Source of the DNA: Leptothermofonsia sichuanensis E412
GTDB lineage: Bacteria > Cyanobacteriota > Cyanobacteriia > Leptolyngbyales > Leptolyngbyaceae
Assembly (NCBI RefSeq): GCF_019891175.1
Contig: NZ_CP072600.1
Coordinates: forward strand, 5,766,001-5,830,000
Length of the DNA: 64,000 bases
Direction: 5' to 3'
A model generated the notes under the pieces. It had not been told where the DNA came from, ran no database searches, and was given only the letters and a program-made list of their open reading frames with translations. The position numbers and the translations under genes are program-made. Below, piece by piece: positions 1,360-31,615 of this stretch (the stretch's first letter is position 1; every line of letters begins with the position of its first letter).

Positions 1360-2259
1360 ATGACTGACCAACTTGTTCGAGCAACGGCAGCCAGGGGTGG
1401 AATCCGGGCTGTAGGGGCGATTACAACTCAGTTGACTGAGGAAGCCAAGCAGCGTCACAGGCTTTCTTATGTCGCTACAGCCGCGCTGAGTCGAACAATG
1501 ACGGCGGGGCTACTGCTTGCTTCTGGAATGAAGCGCAGAGGCTCAAAGGTCACTATTCGGATTCAGGGTGATGGTCCCCTGGGTCGGGTGGTTGCGGATG
1601 CGGGACTGGATGGCACTGTACGTGGCTTTGTGGACTACCCGGAAGCAGAACTGCCCCCAACCGAGAGCGGAAAATTTGATGTGGGTACAGCCGTTGGGCG
1701 GTTGGGCTACGTTTACGTCCTGCGGGATGAAGGGCTGGATTATCCCTACACCAGTACCGTAGAACTGGTTTCTGGTGAGGTTGGGGAAGATGTGGCGAAC
1801 TACCTGGCGTACTCAGAACAGACGCCTTCAGCCCTGGTGCTGGGAGAGTCCTTTGATACCCAGGGAGTGCGAGCATCGGGAGGGCTGCTGATTCAGGTAT
1901 TGCCTAAAGCCGCCAATGATGAGGCACTGGTGGCAGAACTGGAGTCCAGGGTGACATCCCTGGCAGGCTTCACGCCACTGCTAAAAGAAGGGAAGACGCT
2001 CCCAGAAATTTTTGAGCAAATCCTGGGAGGGCTGGATTTACAGATTTTTCCAGAAACGCAGCCTTTACGCTTCCATTGTGGCTGCTCCTACGATCGCGCC
2101 TTAGGAGCACTGAAGCTATTTAGTGTTGCTGAGTTGCAGGATATGATCACCGAGGATCAGGGCGCAGAAGCCGTTTGCGACTTCTGTGGCAATGTTTACA
2201 GGGCAGATGCCCATCAGTTAGAAAAGCTGATTGGGGATATGCAGGGAAAACCGATCTAA
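1360..2259 (+). CDS. hslO: Redox-regulated chaperone Hsp33
   Basis: Hsp33 is a cytoplasmic holdase activated by oxidative unfolding. The 299-residue product has the normal family length. The N-terminal core begins DQLVRATAARGGIRA and contains the SRTMTAGLLLASGMK helix. The C-terminal redox switch has the four zinc-binding cysteines: CxC at residues 240/242 (FHCGCSYDRA) and CxxC at 273/276 (VCDFCGNVY). Oxidation of these to disulfides with zinc release triggers chaperone activity in the family. The ATG lies about 30 bases after a CTACAATAGAGG stretch that may include a -10 element. No operon partner is seen. Downstream are two repeat copies and an IS630 element. Confidence 0.97.
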   Translation: MTDQLVRATAARGGIRAVGAITTQLTEEAKQRHRLSYVATAALSRTMTAGLLLASGMKRRGSKVTIRIQGDGPLGRVVADAGLDGTVRGFVDYPEAELPPTESGKFDVGTAVGRLGYVYVLRDEGLDYPYTSTVELVSGEVGEDVANYLAYSEQTPSALVLGESFDTQGVRASGGLLIQVLPKAANDEALVAELESRVTSLAGFTPLLKEGKTLPEIFEQILGGLDLQIFPETQPLRFHCGCSYDRALGALKLFSVAELQDMITEDQGAEAVCDFCGNVYRADAHQLEKLIGDMQGKPI

Positions 2260-2331
2260 ACTCCTATCTGAATACCTCCTCAGTTCGGGTTCAGGCTCTG
2301 ACAGCCGGGCTTTTCGGAAGGTTTTATAGCT
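2260..2331. repeat. Degenerate copy of the small TA-flanked repeat
   Basis: Immediately after the hslO stop, the order CTCCTATCTGAA - CCTCAGTTCGGGTTCAGGCT - GGGCTTTTCGGAAGG matches the better copies at 2411-2482 and 27973-28045 with many substitutions. It is probably an old copy. Confidence 0.5.
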
Positions 2332-2410
2332 TTTACCCATTGGGTTTGCCACACCCGATACCCGACACCCAATACCCGGAATTGTGGTTAACCCACTTGA
2401 AAATCGCTGT

Positions 2411-2482
2411 AAAAGCCTATCCGAAAACTTCCTCAGTCTGGATTTGAGCGTTGTCCATTGGGGCTTTTCGGATAGGCTTTAA
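2411..2482. repeat. TA-flanked inverted-terminal repeat element, about 68 bp
   Basis: Ends are AAAGCCTATCCGAAAA and its exact reverse complement TTTTCGGATAGGCTTT, flanked by TA on each side. The core is CTTCCTCAGTCTGG...TTGTCCATTGGGG. Other copies lie at 27973-28045 and 36662-36733, plus a degenerate one at 2260-2331. A transcript could fold into a long hairpin and might act as a terminator. Confidence 0.8.
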
Positions 2483-2533
2483 GTGGGCCGTACTCAGAGC
2501 CTGGATCAGACTGTCATACCTGTTGGACGGAGT

Positions 2534-3754
2534 CTAGTAGTCTGTCAACTTTGTTTTGATGGATAGATTAGGGGAGAATGGAGAGGCAGATACCTCTTAC
2601 CAACCATGCCCCAAAAGAGATACATCGTAGCCCTTAGCTGTGAAGAGCGGGAGACTTTAGAAAGTCTGACAACAACCGGAAAAACATCCGTTTATAAACT
2701 CAATCATGCTCGAATTTTGCTGAAAGCTGACATCAACCAGGAAGGCGGCGGTTGGCGGGATCAAGATATCAGTGATGCACTCGATATTAGGGTATCTACG
2801 ATTGAACGAGTCCGGCAACGCTTTGTTGCACAGAGTTTAGAGGCTGCCTTAGGGCGTCAAACTCCAAGTCGAACCAAGCCCCGCTTACTCGATGGCGAAC
2901 AAGAAGCGCATTTGATTGCGCTGGCGTGTGCCGAGACTCCTGAAGGACAAGGGAAATGGAGCGTTCGCCTGTTAGCAGACCAACTGGTTAAGTTGGGATA
3001 TGTAGAGAGCATTTCGCATGAAACCGTGCGGCAAACGCTGAAAAAAACGAACTCAAACCCTGGTTGCAGGAATGCTGGGTAATTCCGCCGAAGTCCAATG
3101 GCGAGTTTGTTTACTACATGGAAGATGTTTTGAGCGTTTATACACGCCCTTATGACCCGCGCTACCCGGTCGTTTGTTTCGATGAAACCAGCAAACAATT
3201 AGTCCTCGAAACGCAAGTTCCCCTCCCCCCCAACCCGGTCAACCGAAGCGCTATGACTATGAATATGAACGCAATGGGGTCTGTAATCTCTTCATGATTT
3301 CTGAACCCTTAGCTGGATGGCGGCATGTAGAAGTCACTGAACGGCGCACCAAACAAGACTATGCCAAACAAATGAAATATCTGGTGGATGTGCGTTACCC
3401 CGATGCCGAATGGATTACCATCGTGCATGACCAACTCAATATTCATGACCCATCTGCCTTGTATGAGACGTTTGCACCTCAAGAAGCCAAGCGGATTCTA
3501 GACAAATTAGAGATTCATTACACACCAAAACATGGCAGTTGGCTTAACATGGCAGAAATTGAACTCAGTGTTTTAGCCCGTCAGTGCTTGGATCGTCGCA
3601 TCCCAGATCAAGATACGTTGAAACGGGAAATTGCTGCTTGGGAAGAACGCAGAAATGATCAATCTCGCACCATTGATTGGCAATTTACGACTGAAGATGC
3701 TCGCATCAAACTTAAGCGACTCTATCCCTCAATTCTTTCTTGACAAGCTACTAG
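2534..3754 (+). mobile_element. IS630-family insertion sequence, copy A (defective)
   Basis: About 1.22 kb. The left end CTAGTAGTCTGTCAACTTTG and the reverse complement of the right end CTAGTAGCTTGTCAAGAAAG share CTAGTAG..TGTCAA, giving imperfect terminal inverted repeats. The TA inside CTAG fits the TA target duplication of the IS630/Tc1 group. It encloses a transposase that needs one -1 shift at A7 and carries a further disruptive shift at a C7 run. The tips match miniature elements elsewhere in the window (6861-6969, 27811-27919, 26805-26912, 16405-16497). Confidence 0.85.
2606..3743 (+). pseudogene. IS630-family transposase, two frame changes
   Basis: The N-terminal part (2606-3047) has a homeodomain-like helix-turn-helix region (QDISDALDIRVSTIERVRQRF, residues about 50-70). 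At A7 (3041-3047) a -1 shift joins ...TVRQTLKK to NELKPWLQECWVIPP, the start of the catalytic part. The first catalytic Asp is in VCFDETSK. A second change at the C7 run 3225-3231 breaks the frame; one extra C would restore PLPPQPGQPKRYDYEYERNG. The last part contains VHDQLNIH, where the family usually has D-N, and SWLNMAEIELSVL with the catalytic Glu. The first shift may be programmed because the second IS630 has the same A7 at the same place. The C7 shift is probably inactivating, or a sequencing error in a homopolymer. Confidence 0.85.
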
Positions 3755-24031: not shown

Positions 24032-26071
24032 ATGAGTCAACTCAAACCACAGATTTGCTGCCCCAACGCCAACTGCACGGCTCCCCTCAATCCCCTCGGA
24101 AGTTCAGTGTGTGGGGCGTGCGGCACTCCGCTGCTGTATCGCTACCTGTGGGCAGTAGGCAAGACTGTGGAGCAAATTCCTGCAACCAGCCAGGTGGGCG
24201 GCAGATATTATGTCACTGCCCGTCGCATCTGGCTGGATACTCAACCCAGCTTGCCGCCTGACGTTCCCACCGACTGGTCCGATGCCGTCCTGCCCTATTT
24301 ATATCTTTACCCCTATCGTCTGCATATCCCGGAGGTCTACGGATTCTGCATCCAGAATGAAGACCCCGCCATTGAGGAGATATTTCTATTAGACAATGTG
24401 CCGCTGGATGCATCCGGCATCCTTTACCCTGCGATCGCCGAAGCCTGGACAAAAACTACAGCGGTACGGCAGGTCTACTGGCTCTGGCAAATACTCCAGC
24501 TCTGGCAACCCCTGGCCGAATTGGGAGTTGCTACCAGTCTGTTAGCTGCTGACAATCTTCGAGTAGAGGGCTGGCGGGTGCGCCTCTGCCAGCTTTACCA
24601 CGATACCGACGTGCTGGCTGCCTCCACCGACTCAGATCTCGCTCTCCAATTGGCAGATTTGTCAAACCTGTGGCTGACCTGGATAGACAGTGCCAGACCA
24701 GAGATTATTGAGCCGCTACGCTCAATTTGCCAGCAGATGCAGGCAGGAGCAGAACCAGGGGCGATCGCCACCCAACTCAACCAGTTACTGCTGGAGCAGG
24801 CAGCCCGGCTTCCCCTGAACCTGAAAATAGCCGGTGGCACTGATACTGGCCCTGAACGGGAGCACAATGAAGATGCCTGCTATCCGCTCACGCTGAACCA
24901 GCCGTCCCAGGCGGATGGGCTGATGCCACGGGTTGCGATCGTCTGCGATGGGATTGGCGGGCACGAAGGGGGAGAGGTTGCCAGTCAAATTGCAGTGCAG
25001 TCTCTTAAACTCCAGGTGCAGGCCCTTTTATCTGAAGTCGCGGCGGCGGAAGAACCCGTGCCACCAGACCTGGTGATGCAACAACTGGAAAGTGCTGTGC
25101 GGGTCGTCAACAATCTCATTGCCAGTCAAAATGACGCCCAAAGTCGTGAGGATCGCCGCCGTATGGGCACCACCCTGGTGATGGCAATCCAGTTACCCCA
25201 GCGGGTCAAAATCGATGGCGGTAAGCTGGCTGAAAATGGCCATGAACTCTACCTGGTCCATATCGGTGATAGCCGTGCCTACTGGTTGACCCAACGACAC
25301 TGCTATCTGCTAACCGTTGATGATAACGTGGTGACGCGGGAAGTTCGGACAGGGCGGGCACTCTATCATGAAAGCATTCACCGCCCCGATGCCGGTGCCC
25401 TGACCCAGGCACTGGGTACGCGAGATGCCGACTTTATCCACCCCACGATCCAGCGCTTCATTCTGGAAGAAAATGGCTTACTGCTGCTTTGCTCAGACGG
25501 CGTGAGCGATAATGGATTGATCGAGCGCACCTGGGCGGAACCGGCAAGAGCCGTGCTGAATAGCAAGATGTCCCTGGATACAGCCGTCAAAACCTGGTTA
25601 GATCTGGCAAATCAACACAACGGGTATGACAATGCCACCCTTGTCCTGCTTCACTGTCATGTCTCTTCTCCCACGCCAGAAGTGCTTCTACCCCAAACTT
25701 CTGACGGTTATGGTAAGGGTGTTGGGCGATCAGATGGGTCCCATCCCCTGAGACAGGAAGGGCAGGAAGTTCCGGGTAATTCAACCCAAACCAGTTCTTC
25801 TACTACCCAAAATCAATCAAAACGGGGTTTATTGATAGGAGTGGGTACAATTCTGTTGCTTGCGTTAGTGGGCGGAGTTGGGGTTGTTGCCTGGTCGCAA
25901 TTAGATCCTGAGGGCTTCCAGCGATTTCGTGAACGGGTTATCCCGCTTCAAAGGATTGGAAGGGTCAATTTGAGCGATCGCTTGAATTCCCCCCCTGATT
26001 GTGGAGAAGATGGGTGGGGGGCGATCGCTCCTGGAGCACCCGATCCAGGTGTTATAGCGTTTCTTAATTGA
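24032..26071 (+). CDS. PP2C-type Ser/Thr phosphatase with N-terminal zinc ribbon and C-terminal membrane anchor
   Basis: 679 residues. A zinc ribbon (CCPNANCTAPLNP...CGACGTPL) opens the protein, followed by about 200 residues that resemble a degenerate kinase-like module found with cyanobacterial phosphatases. The PP2C domain covers about 265-545, with metal-binding and catalytic motifs GPEREHNEDA, VCDGIGGHEGGE, MGTTLVMA, VHIGDSRAYW, CSDGVSDNG and DNATLVLL all intact. A hydrophobic helix (LLIGVGTILLLALVGGVGVV, about 605-630) would anchor it. The last codons IAFLN-stop lie inside a dispersed repeat (26053-26146), so the insertion has probably replaced the original end. Confidence 0.94.
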   Translation: MSQLKPQICCPNANCTAPLNPLGSSVCGACGTPLLYRYLWAVGKTVEQIPATSQVGGRYYVTARRIWLDTQPSLPPDVPTDWSDAVLPYLYLYPYRLHIPEVYGFCIQNEDPAIEEIFLLDNVPLDASGILYPAIAEAWTKTTAVRQVYWLWQILQLWQPLAELGVATSLLAADNLRVEGWRVRLCQLYHDTDVLAASTDSDLALQLADLSNLWLTWIDSARPEIIEPLRSICQQMQAGAEPGAIATQLNQLLLEQAARLPLNLKIAGGTDTGPEREHNEDACYPLTLNQPSQADGLMPRVAIVCDGIGGHEGGEVASQIAVQSLKLQVQALLSEVAAAEEPVPPDLVMQQLESAVRVVNNLIASQNDAQSREDRRRMGTTLVMAIQLPQRVKIDGGKLAENGHELYLVHIGDSRAYWLTQRHCYLLTVDDNVVTREVRTGRALYHESIHRPDAGALTQALGTRDADFIHPTIQRFILEENGLLLLCSDGVSDNGLIERTWAEPARAVLNSKMSLDTAVKTWLDLANQHNGYDNATLVLLHCHVSSPTPEVLLPQTSDGYGKGVGRSDGSHPLRQEGQEVPGNSTQTSSSTTQNQSKRGLLIGVGTILLLALVGGVGVVAWSQLDPEGFQRFRERVIPLQRIGRVNLSDRLNSPPDCGEDGWGAIAPGAPDPGVIAFLN

Positions 26072-26178: not shown

Positions 26179-26808
26179 ATGGAATGGCATGCAACCGATG
26201 CTCAGAGCCTGGCAATTATTGACCGGGAAATGGGTGATCATGTTTTTTCTCCTGCCGAGTATGAAATTGTCCGTCGGGTGATCTACGCTACGGCAGACTT
26301 TGAGTACAAGTCGTTAATTCGCTTCTCGGAACTGGCACTTCAGTCTGGAGCAGCGGCTTTAGCTGCCCGCAGCACCATTGTGGTGGATGTGCCTATGGTT
26401 CAGGTGGGAATTACGACCAATATTCAAAACACCTTTGCCAATCCGGTTTATTGCAGCATGGATGCCCTGACCCGTCCTCAGAAAGAAAAAACTCAGGCAG
26501 CCTGGGGAATTGAGACTCTGGCACGGAGATATCCGGAGGGAATTTTTGTCGTGGGTCAGGCTCAGACCGCTTTAATCTCCCTGGTGGAATTGATCGAATC
26601 TGAAGAAATTCGACCGGCACTGGTGATTGGCACGCCTTCTGGATTTGTTGATGTTGAAGTGGCAAAAGAACGCCTGGCAGATTCTCTGATTCCCCACATT
26701 CGGATTGAAGGGCGAAAAGGAAGTGCCGTGGTTGCAGCCGCGATTGTGAACGGGCTGGTTGACCTTGCCTGGCAGGCATACGGTCGGGAGCGGAATGGGC
26801 TGATCTAG
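26179..26808 (+). CDS. CobH/CbiC-like protein lacking the catalytic histidine
   Basis: 209 residues, the length of precorrin-8X methylmutases, with conserved parts VVDVPMVQVGI, FVVGQAQTALISLVELIES, RPALVIGTPSGFVDVEVAKE and IEGRKGSAVVAAAIVNGL. The catalytic His of the family, in RLIHACGMTD of the second copy here (cobH, His40), is Tyr36 in RRVIYATADFEY. Methyl migration from C11 to C12 depends on that His, so this paralogue probably has another role, such as binding a tetrapyrrole or a different isomerisation. It stands alone, away from the cob cluster. Its stop TAG is in the terminal CTAG of a miniature element. Confidence 0.88.
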   Translation: MEWHATDAQSLAIIDREMGDHVFSPAEYEIVRRVIYATADFEYKSLIRFSELALQSGAAALAARSTIVVDVPMVQVGITTNIQNTFANPVYCSMDALTRPQKEKTQAAWGIETLARRYPEGIFVVGQAQTALISLVELIESEEIRPALVIGTPSGFVDVEVAKERLADSLIPHIRIEGRKGSAVVAAAIVNGLVDLAWQAYGRERNGLI

Positions 26809-26923: not shown

Positions 26924-27751
26924 TCACCAGTCCATTGTGGCTTTCCGGCGGGAAGAGCGGCGACGGGGAGATTTCCGCTTCATGGGAACACGTTCTATGG
27001 AACCACCCTTAGCCCTGTTCTGATAGGGTTCCTGAGGTTGAGGAGGGCGTCCTGGAGGATCACCCCAATCCTGTTGTTCATCATTTTCCCATTGTTCATA
27101 CCGGGCGCGAGAACGCAGCCGCCGACTGACCTCAATAAACTCCTCTCGCTGTAGACAGGGGTAGTCACTCACCCAGATGTTGTGATCGGGAATGTAAACA
27201 TCAGAGGTTTGATTGATGCGGCTGAGGTCACCCCGATTGGACATCACAATCATCTGGGCGGTATCACCGGGCGCGATCGCCTGATGGTTCCGCTTCAGAG
27301 GCGCACGCACCCGGGCCGAAAACCCCGATTCATCCCCTACTTCAATATTGATGCAGCGCTCCCGATTTTCAACGATAACCAGATCACCTCTTTCATTAAC
27401 GGTCTCTTCTTGCCCAATCAATTCTTCCGTCACATAAACATCCAGCACTTTGCCCTGCCAGAAACCGCTGTAGGAAAACTTGCGATACTCCAGATTGCGT
27501 AAGCTTGCCCACAATACAGGACCCCACAGCCAGTAAAGCCCGATGATAATCCCCAACAGGAACCGGAAGAACCCAATTTCTGGACCAATGATTAACCCCA
27601 GCCCCAGAATGAGAACTGTCACTCCCACCACTGAGATAAGCAGTCGCCGTAGAAAATCAGACAGCTTTCCCCAACAGTAAACATATTGGGCACCAGTAGC
27701 GACCTTAGGAATCAGGGATTCAAAGGTTTGACGTGTTAGCGGGATGAGCAT
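26924..27751 (-). CDS. Conserved membrane protein of unknown function
   Basis: 275 residues. Two hydrophobic helices near the N-terminus (about 37-60, LLISVVGVTVLILGLGLIIG; and 62-85, FFRFLLGIIIGLYWLWGPVL) precede a soluble domain of about 130 residues containing KVLDVYVTEELIGQEETVNE and CINIEVGDESGFSARVRAPL. The C-terminal tail is very basic and rich in Arg, Lys, Pro and Gln (VPMKRKSPRRRSSRRKATM). The family appears cyanobacterial, but I cannot assign a function. The tail could bind nucleic acid or acidic lipid. Repeats lie at both ends of the gene. Confidence 0.85.
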   Translation of the reverse strand: MLIPLTRQTFESLIPKVATGAQYVYCWGKLSDFLRRLLISVVGVTVLILGLGLIIGPEIGFFRFLLGIIIGLYWLWGPVLWASLRNLEYRKFSYSGFWQGKVLDVYVTEELIGQEETVNERGDLVIVENRERCINIEVGDESGFSARVRAPLKRNHQAIAPGDTAQMIVMSNRGDLSRINQTSDVYIPDHNIWVSDYPCLQREEFIEVSRRLRSRARYEQWENDEQQDWGDPPGRPPQPQEPYQNRAKGGSIERVPMKRKSPRRRSSRRKATMDW

Positions 27752-30090: not shown

Positions 30091-30861
30091 TTATGCCCAT
30101 TGGGGCTGGCGCTGGCTGGGAATCAGAATGAGTGACCAGTAGGGAACTTCGGCAGGATTGACTTCAGGCACTGCCATAATTCGCTGGTCAGGTTGGGTTG
30201 CCCGTTCGATGTAGAAGGCGCGATGCAGCAACCCCAGTTCATCCAGAACAGTCCGAACTTTTGTAAAGTGTCTACCCAGTTTAATGATCACCGCAGCATC
30301 AGCCAGCACCAGGCGATCGCGCAACTGGTTGGCATCCAGGGTGGCAGGCAGAATACTGAACACATCATCGCGGAAGGTGATGGGTGCTCCCACCATAGCA
30401 GCACTGGCGAGTGTTGAAGAGATTCCCGGTACGACTTCAGTGGGAAATCGTCTGGCTAGACGCTGAAACAAGTACATGAACGTCCCGTACAGCATTGGTT
30501 CTCCTTCGCATAGCACCGCGACATCGCGCCCAGCCGTCAGGTGTTCCGCAATTTTCTCCGCAGCCCTGTCGTAGTAGGGATGAGCCGATCGCTCAACGCT
30601 GAATGGCATCGGCAGGGGAACTTCTATCTGGTCAGGACGGATAAAACCAGCCATGATCGCCCGTGCCAGCCCCTTGCCATTTTCCAGCGTCGGGTAAGCA
30701 ATCACCGGAACCGAAGTCAAGATTCGGTGTGCCTTCAGTGTGAGCAACTCTGGATCGCCAGGACCAATCCCCAAGCCGTAGAGTTTACCTGGAGAAGGGA
30801 GTTCGTCCGTGGTCTGACTTCTGGCTTCCTCCTGTCCCCCATTCCCCTCCCCTGTAGTCAT
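30091..30861 (-). CDS. cobI: Precorrin-2 C20-methyltransferase
   Basis: SAM-dependent methylation of (cobalt-)precorrin-2 at C20 in cobalamin synthesis. It belongs to the tetrapyrrole methylase family, with LYGLGIGPGDPELLTLKAHR near the start, DVAVLCEGEPMLYGTFMYLF (the second SAM-site loop) and EVVPGISSTLASAAMVGAPI. About 256 residues. The ATG at 30861 overlaps the cobH stop by one base (TGATG), which indicates translational coupling; a GTG one codon earlier is the alternative. It is downstream of cobH in a two-gene operon. Confidence 0.95.
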   Translation of the reverse strand: MTTGEGNGGQEEARSQTTDELPSPGKLYGLGIGPGDPELLTLKAHRILTSVPVIAYPTLENGKGLARAIMAGFIRPDQIEVPLPMPFSVERSAHPYYDRAAEKIAEHLTAGRDVAVLCEGEPMLYGTFMYLFQRLARRFPTEVVPGISSTLASAAMVGAPITFRDDVFSILPATLDANQLRDRLVLADAAVIIKLGRHFTKVRTVLDELGLLHRAFYIERATQPDQRIMAVPEVNPAEVPYWSLILIPSQRQPQWA

Positions 30862-31484
30862 CACTCAGTTTCCTTTGCCAGGGCATTCACGGCGGCGGCG
30901 GCGATCGCACTGCCACCCCGTCGTCCGCGCAGGGTGATGAAAGGAACTCCGCGGCTGTTGGCAATAAGCTCCGCTTTAGAGTCAGCCGCTCCCACGAATC
31001 CCACGGGAAAGCCCAGAATCAGGGCAGGTTTCGGTGCTCCCTCATCCAGCAGTTCCAGGAGCCGAAATAAAGCCGTTGGGGCATTACCGATCGCAATGAC
31101 AGCACTTTCCATCCGGGGTCGCCATAGTTCTAAGGCTGCCGCCGATCGAGTATTGGCAATGCGCTGTGCCATCTTTTCCACATCAGGATGATTGAGGGTG
31201 CAAATAATTTCATTACTGGTGGGAAGTCGGTTACGAATAATCCCATTTGCCACCATCTGCGAATCACAGAAAACTGGCGCACCTGCTGCCAGAGCCACCC
31301 GTCCTGCCCGGACAGCATCCGGGGATGCCGCTAAATCCTGCACAATGTCTGTCATGCCGCAGGCATGGATCAGGCGTACCGTCACCTGTGCTAAATCAGC
31401 CGGTAAGCCCGTTAAATTGGCTTCCTGGCGGATAATTGCAAAAGATTGGCGGTAAATGTCGTCACCATTGCGGATGTAGTTCAT
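30861..31484 (-). CDS. cobH: Precorrin-8X methylmutase
   Basis: Moves the C11 methyl group to C12 to give hydrogenobyrinic (or cobyrinic) acid. 207 residues from the ATG at 31484 (MNYIRNGDDIYRQSFAIIRQ); the open frame extends upstream through the tRNA-Lys gene, so the longer version is wrong. The catalytic His40 is present in VRLIHACGMTDIV. Other signatures are VFCDSQMVANGI, AVIAIGNAPTALFRLLELLD, ALILGFPVGFVGAADSKAEL and LRGRRGGSAIAAAAVNAL. First gene of a cobH-cobI unit. A related protein without the His is at 26179-26808. Confidence 0.96.
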   Translation of the reverse strand: MNYIRNGDDIYRQSFAIIRQEANLTGLPADLAQVTVRLIHACGMTDIVQDLAASPDAVRAGRVALAAGAPVFCDSQMVANGIIRNRLPTSNEIICTLNHPDVEKMAQRIANTRSAAALELWRPRMESAVIAIGNAPTALFRLLELLDEGAPKPALILGFPVGFVGAADSKAELIANSRGVPFITLRGRRGGSAIAAAAVNALAKETE

Positions 31485-31543
31485 CATGGGGAGCGGGGTA
31501 GGCAATTCTCCCTTAAGGGGAGGAGCTGAATAACTAAATAGAA

Positions 31544-31615
31544 TGGGTGACCTGGGATTCGAACCCAGAACCAGCGGATTAAGAGTCCGATGCGCTACCG
31601 TTGCGCTAGTCACCC
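31544..31615 (-). tRNA. tRNA-Lys (CTT)
   Basis: 72 bases. Acceptor GGGTGAC pairs with GTCACCC, discriminator A; D arm AGCGCAACGGTAGCGC; anticodon loop CTCTTAA, anticodon CTT; T arm CTGGG-TTCGAAT-CCCAG. Sixty bases upstream of cobH on the same strand. Confidence 0.95.

Follow-up and report, generated by a model that had tools for sequence, protein, structure and literature searches.

Our analysis showed that the window, a 64,000-nucleotide stretch of the Leptothermofonsia sichuanensis E412 genome, encodes a CbiC-fold protein with Tyr where the catalytic His would be, and that this protein belongs to a real, conserved and selected clade of paralogues, which has probably been misnamed. The members of this clade are stand-alone, His-less CbiC-fold proteins that B12 synthesis does not require. 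They are already catalogued in NCBIfam as PRK05953 (NF004619), whose equivalog name, "precorrin-8X methylmutase", is probably wrong for the whole clade. Among the papers listed by literature searches on the CobH/CbiC histidine, the CoaR domain, cyanobacterial paralogues and the PCC 7002 gene, none studies it.

The tyrosine protein and its clade

The open reading frame is intact, starts with ATG, and has the coordinates that were originally given for it (Table 1). Its product scored 236.9 bits against Pfam CbiC (PF02570; cut-off 22.5) and 385.3 bits against PRK05953 (cut-off 278), so the CbiC/CobH paralogue of the original prediction is real. The predicted replacement of a conserved His by Tyr was likewise borne out by codon 36 and by the alignment, in which RVIYATAD lies opposite the His-bearing segment of PDB 1v9c. 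In the CobH of the window, RLIHACGM lines up with the segment of PDB 1f2v that carries the His, which we take to be the catalytic residue, His43; Tyr36 sits at that place. A precorrin-8X methylmutase is expected to have the catalytic His together with GNAPT and GRxGGS, and all three are replaced here. The N-terminal MerR fusion of CoaR is also missing, the 209 aa making up a CbiC domain alone. The predicted model of the protein (pLDDT 95.5) gave Foldseek TM scores of 0.84 to 1v9c, 0.83 to 1f2v, and 0.71–0.75 to the CoaR chains 9ika and 9ikt; the CbiC fold is therefore confidently predicted to be retained.

Table 1. Features of the window discussed in the text
Feature	Position	Strand	Remark
PP2C-type phosphatase gene, upstream	24032..26071	+	neighbourhood not conserved
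CbiC-fold paralogue, PRK05953 clade	26179..26808	+	209 aa, Tyr at catalytic-His position
Tyr36 codon TAC	26284..26286	+	His there in CobH, CbiC-H, family-f2 CbiC and outgroup
GQAQT, residues 126-130	26554..26568	+	enzymes have GNAPT
GRKGSA, residues 178-183	26710..26727	+	enzymes have GRxGGS
Convergent neighbour, 275 aa, membrane-protein-like	26924..27751	-	no Pfam family over cut-off
Genuine CobH with His (PRK08285 equivalog)	30861..31487	-	comparison only; start set at Met43 of longer ORF

It had also been proposed that the genome carries a genuine CobH, with the variant elsewhere. The CobH is present, but the two genes lie about 4 kb apart in the same window, on opposite strands. The ORF listed for CobH (30861-31613) is over-long. 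A tRNA (31544-31615, minus strand) overlaps its 5′ end, and only from Met43 onwards does it match PRK08285; the shorter gene of Table 1 was adopted for these two reasons. The third CbiC-fold gene of this genome, at G000:C1:311063, is a CoaR-like MerR-CbiC fusion (Pfam MerR and CbiC) with Leu at the residue-36 place.

For comparison, 220 loci were collected, 80 via peptide patterns and 140 via a profile search of cyanobacterial genomes. ORFs were matched to all 220, and 217 domains of at least 130 residues were aligned, three shorter ones being dropped. The residue-36 place was occupied by Tyr in 118 of the aligned domains, His in 84, Leu in 13, and Ser and Asp in one each. Removal of duplicates reduced 119 Tyr-clade rows to 110 distinct sequences, 33 rows of His-bearing cyanobacterial CbiC (CbiC-H) to 32, and seven rows of family-f2 CbiC to six. 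Tyr was found in 108 of the 110 distinct clade sequences, Ser in one and Asp in one. Members from the profile search comprised 38 with Tyr and one with Asp (n = 39, three of them identical to pattern-found ones); those from the peptide patterns, one of which included the Tyr and thereby biased the set, comprised 79 with Tyr and one with Ser (n = 80).

For the tree, domains shorter than 150 residues were dropped, the remainder was thinned at 90% identity and three outgroup proteins were added, giving 166 rows; a second thinning at 80%, from which chosen rows were exempt, left 112 rows, and the trait column was excluded. The 32 Tyr rows, the Asp row and the Ser row formed a single clade with support of 100/100 and a stem of 0.95. 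Tyr36 thus defines a conserved clade and is no isolated mutation. The clade and the His-bearing cyanobacterial CbiC (PRK05954) formed a joint group (99/98), in a tree whose bootstrap was unsettled, in which two rows, L161 and one from the outgroup, are long, and in which the long branches of CobH and CoaR meet; only weak branches (84/82, 82/67) bear on whether the clade is nested within the cyanobacterial CbiC group or stands beside it. In either position, the presence of His in the outgroup proteins, CobH and family-f2 CbiC makes it the likelier ancestral residue.

A further Tyr (TAC) arose independently within the His group, in a CbiC with intact GNAPT and GGS (L180; G006:C59:9096-9665). The genome of L180 encodes CbiD and CobM but has no copy with His, so that, if L180 is real, the change to Tyr by itself may leave the reaction intact. 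Alternatively, this Tyr reflects a single mutation or sequencing error; no other genome represents its family.

We then compared 44 CobH, 32 distinct CbiC-H and three outgroup sequences with 110 distinct ones from the Tyr clade, of which the peptide patterns had supplied about two thirds. Nine positions that hold one residue in more than 90% of CobH and CbiC-H alike were mostly different in the Tyr clade: I6→T/S, F11→L, H36→Y, N127→Q/E, P129→Q, V154→A/S, G182→S/N, S183→A and A192→G. At residue 36, His was found in 85 of 85 distinct sequences (44 CobH, 32 CbiC-H, six family-f2 CbiC and three outgroup, with L180 set apart), a count that is circular since CbiC-H and the Tyr clade were sorted partly by this residue; the other eight positions are not affected. 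The six family-f2 CbiC, which retain His, likewise depart from the common residue at three of the positions (F11, N127, S183), with Ser for the Asn of GNAPT and Ala for the last Ser of GRxGGS. These three changes are therefore compatible with a working enzyme. Rare variants aside, the Tyr clade was the only group of stand-alone proteins sampled in which I6, P129, V154, G182 and A192 were replaced. The enzyme residue was retained by a minority of the clade at G182 (10/110), V154 (7/110), S183 (6/110) and A192 (3/110). Clade-specific residues were strongly kept at Leu11 (110/110) and Gln129 (104/110), and D70, P146, G126, F156 and G181 were unchanged.

Occurrence, the B12 pathway and selection

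Our survey covered 387 genomes of the class, each at least 98% complete. The Tyr family exceeded its curated cut-off in 211 of them, a threshold that divergent members, L161 and L213 among them, do not reach. CbiD exceeded its cut-off in 375 genomes, and one more (G286) had a match of only E 2.9e-4. Nine of the 12 genomes without CbiD over cut-off were also without CobM over cut-off: G149, G213, G322, G211, G312, G044, G067, G142 and G286, in the last of which cobM is broken. The first five of these keep the Tyr gene. Two genomes of about 95% completeness without CbiD and CobM, G009 and G057, were added, and G009 keeps it as well. A methylmutase should occur together with the corrin-ring pathway, yet the Tyr gene was kept in six of the 11 sampled genomes without it.

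Three of the six carriers come from one genus, Picosynechococcus. G149 is PCC 7117 and G213 is PCC 7003 (100% plasmid matches; six and three contigs, respectively), and the tool's grouping puts G322 (90 contigs) with them in that genus. The gaps in CbiD and CobM are less sure in G211 (660 contigs), G312 (230) and G009 (720), because these assemblies are fragmented. In the four carriers that the Pfam profile search covered, G149, G213, G211 and G009, the Tyr gene was the sole CbiC-fold gene.

Among the pathway-less genomes without the Tyr gene, G044 and G057 belong to family f13, of which two members with CbiD, G012 and G031, have only the His form. The profile search found no CbiC-fold gene in G057 and G142 and only a 66-position match below cut-off in G067, and G286 matched the Tyr-family model only at E 3.9e-22. 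In the 2.8 Mb genome of G286, cobM lies in three pieces with stop codons (G286:C1:2347533-2348250), a B12 pathway in decay. G167 has the Tyr gene and no CbiD, and was not counted as a pathway loss because CobM is present and the assembly has 1,200 contigs. G128 and G378 have CobM, without CbiD or the Tyr gene. The Tyr gene is dispensable, as five of the 11 pathway-less genomes are without it and little more than half of the survey exceeded the cut-off; being absent from many cyanobacteria, it is also unneeded for photosynthesis in general.

A His copy was present in 61 of the 67 genomes whose CbiC-fold matches were read; the other six were the four Tyr-only genomes, the genome of L180, and G067 with its fragment. 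Each of the 61 has either CobH or CbiC (the family-f2 type included) and no genome was seen to hold both, fragments shorter than 130 aa being ignored, so CobH and CbiC apparently replace one another. In another genome (G232; two contigs, 99% complete), CbiD and CobM are present and nothing matched the CbiC fold, which is either a missing methylmutase step or a gap. A CobH joined to the C-terminus of a protein resembling nitrite/sulfite reductases, perhaps CobG, was met at L089 (genome G079, genus g62; 1489-3327, minus strand; Pfam NIR_SIR and CbiC), and the CbiC hits of G094 and G114, from the same genus, lie in open frames of 719 and 727 aa.

The dN/dS of the Tyr gene between PCC 7117 and PCC 7003 was 0.052–0.061 (dN 0.023–0.025, dS 0.38–0.47); pairs with G322 were saturated (0.084 at dS 2.8) or gave no value. 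Across all Tyr-gene pairs that were not saturated, the range was 0.009–0.061. Between-genome identity averaged 67.0% for the Tyr protein against 71.3% for CobH (78 pairs, the Tyr protein higher in 27), and 62.2% against 56.8% for CbiC-H (171 pairs, higher in 107). Among the matches listed, two family members, G324 and G247, had an in-frame stop. The low dN/dS and the retention in pathway-less genomes together indicate that the function cannot depend on B12 synthesis. For the same reasons, purifying selection being seen between two of the six carriers, regulation of corrin flux, which had been suggested originally, is not supported as a general role.

PCC 7002, a congener of PCC 7117 and PCC 7003, is described as a strict cobalamin auxotroph in an excerpt of PMC7205611; judging from their gene loss, PCC 7117 and PCC 7003 would be auxotrophs too. 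An excerpt of PMC3788122 gives a 2.03-fold transcript change for PCC 7002 A0582, "precorrin isomerase", according to which A0582 is transcribed. A0582 is presumably the Tyr gene of PCC 7002. As the curated equivalog name is probably wrong, it can mislead predictions of the B12 pathway in cyanobacteria, and PCC 7002, as far as these excerpts go, is an example of such a label.

Genomic neighbourhood

The neighbouring phosphatase had been offered as context for the Tyr gene. We rejected this link, since PP2C was found in 0/80 related loci and 0/78 further loci. The 78 loci came from 28 family groups (20 + 58), with the CbiC-H loci L307 and L308 excluded and contig-end losses counted as misses; most were picked from among the matches listed and are hence typical members. 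The convergent 275-aa gene occurred on the opposite strand around the Tyr gene in 58/80 and 33/78 loci, mostly adjoining. It often adjoins both the Tyr gene and DapB, the latter being present in 24/78 loci.

A gene for a TPM-domain membrane protein was found upstream of the Tyr gene, on the same strand, in 45/78 loci (13 families), with a median gap of 136 bp and one outlier at 3.5 kb. In the genome of the window, it lies more than 1.2 Mb from the Tyr gene. The TPM protein was matched in 78 of 80 chosen genomes with and without the Tyr gene (weakly in G306; absent from G286 and G346). An obligate partnership was thus rejected, as adjacency is conserved but co-loss was not seen, and the link is suggestive only, because the TPM protein is nearly universal. 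Neither the window nor 25 related loci contained an Rfam riboswitch that reached the gathering threshold, and no CobI was found in the 4-kb flanks of the 80 loci (59 with full flanks). Apart from DapB, our neighbour searches brought out no conserved neighbouring gene with a known function in a tetrapyrrole or other pathway.

Possible functions and closest known systems

We give an even chance to the reading that the Tyr clade is a neofunctionalised CbiC, which binds a tetrapyrrole without a methyl shift. A gene of the cyanobacterial CbiC group would have been duplicated; in the stem lineage of one copy, Tyr would have taken the place of the catalytic His and GNAPT and GRxGGS would have been remodelled, changes that the sequences show, with the fold kept. 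In several genomes the copy plays no part in B12 synthesis, as shown by their loss of ring-pathway genes, and in the rest it presumably plays none either. Most likely its former substrate cleft would still hold a tetrapyrrole, much as the CbiC-like domain of the cobalt sensor CoaR presumably does, and it may act as a carrier, sensor or protector of the bound molecule. The Tyr clade would then be a clear case of a cofactor-pathway enzyme taken into a new role.

The main rival, which is rather unlikely but carries real weight, is an enzyme acting on another substrate, with Tyr36 as a general acid/base that isomerises a different tetrapyrrole or an unrelated molecule. Tyr can serve as a proton donor, and the near-invariance of Tyr36, Leu11 and Gln129, as in an active site under selection, and the low dN/dS of unsaturated pairs suit such an enzyme; the Asp and Ser members at the Tyr place, and the want of a conserved pathway gene beyond DapB, speak against it. 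The original idea of another substrate or ligand fits the data. That the protein is a second working precorrin-8X methylmutase, using Tyr for His, is improbable. The equivalog of that name, the Tyr of L180 in an otherwise intact CbiC, and the variation of three replaced positions in His-bearing family-f2 CbiC would agree with it, but genomes that lack CbiD and CobM keep the gene under purifying selection, five positions are replaced in the Tyr clade alone, and nearly all genomes read have a His copy.

There is only a small chance that the Tyr protein serves the corrin pathway as a regulator or helper of CobH, or that it deals with corrinoids, whether these are synthesised or imported. Its fold is common to that of CoaR, whose CbiC-like domain is called a putative tetrapyrrole-binding domain in an excerpt of PMC7689651, and the B12-requiring Picosynechococcus would have to import B12. 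Against this role stand the four Tyr-only genomes, which are without CobH, CbiC, CbiD and CobM, and the absence of a riboswitch nearby in the loci searched; a part in handling imported B12 would be compatible with both findings. A decaying pseudoenzyme is highly improbable: the loss of the catalytic His, the absence of the gene from many genomes and the two in-frame stops point that way, but it is contradicted by the dN/dS of 0.05–0.06 between two genomes without the B12 pathway and by a between-genome identity near that of CobH and above that of CbiC-H.

A bolder proposal, which we consider a long shot, is that PRK05953 is an unrecognised cyanobacterial tetrapyrrole protein, perhaps of the photosynthetic membrane, recruited from B12 synthesis to isomerise, carry or sense some chlorophyll, haem or bilin intermediate and working with the TPM-domain protein. 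An isomerase for the chlorophyll epimer (a′) was dropped by reasoning: no family-f2 genome came near the family cut-off among the matches listed, the small genomes of family f2 are presumably picocyanobacteria, and picocyanobacteria have photosystem I.

Of the known systems, the His-bearing cyanobacterial CbiC (PRK05954/NF004620) is like the Tyr clade in fold, length, the RVI-x-(A/S)TADF motif and their joint grouping, but has His, GNAPT and GGS where the Tyr protein has Tyr, GQAQT and GSA. CobH (PRK08285; PDB 1f2v, 1i1h, 4au1) shares the fold, the conserved Asp70 and the xGF region, whereas identity is only about 30% and the catalytic His and motifs differ. The CbiC-like domain of CoaR (PDB 8x33, 9ika, 9ikt, 9ipl), which PDB titles call a tetrapyrrole-binding domain and the same excerpt of PMC7689651 a putative one, also has the CbiC fold without the catalytic His, Leu being at its place in 13/13 sampled CoaR-type sequences. 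However, CoaR differs from the Tyr protein in its fused MerR DNA-binding domain, in forming a separate clade (100/100), and in having Tyr for the Asn of the GNAPT motif. Of PRK05953/NF004619, the Tyr protein of the window is a full member without any difference in sequence, and the part in doubt is the name "precorrin-8X methylmutase".
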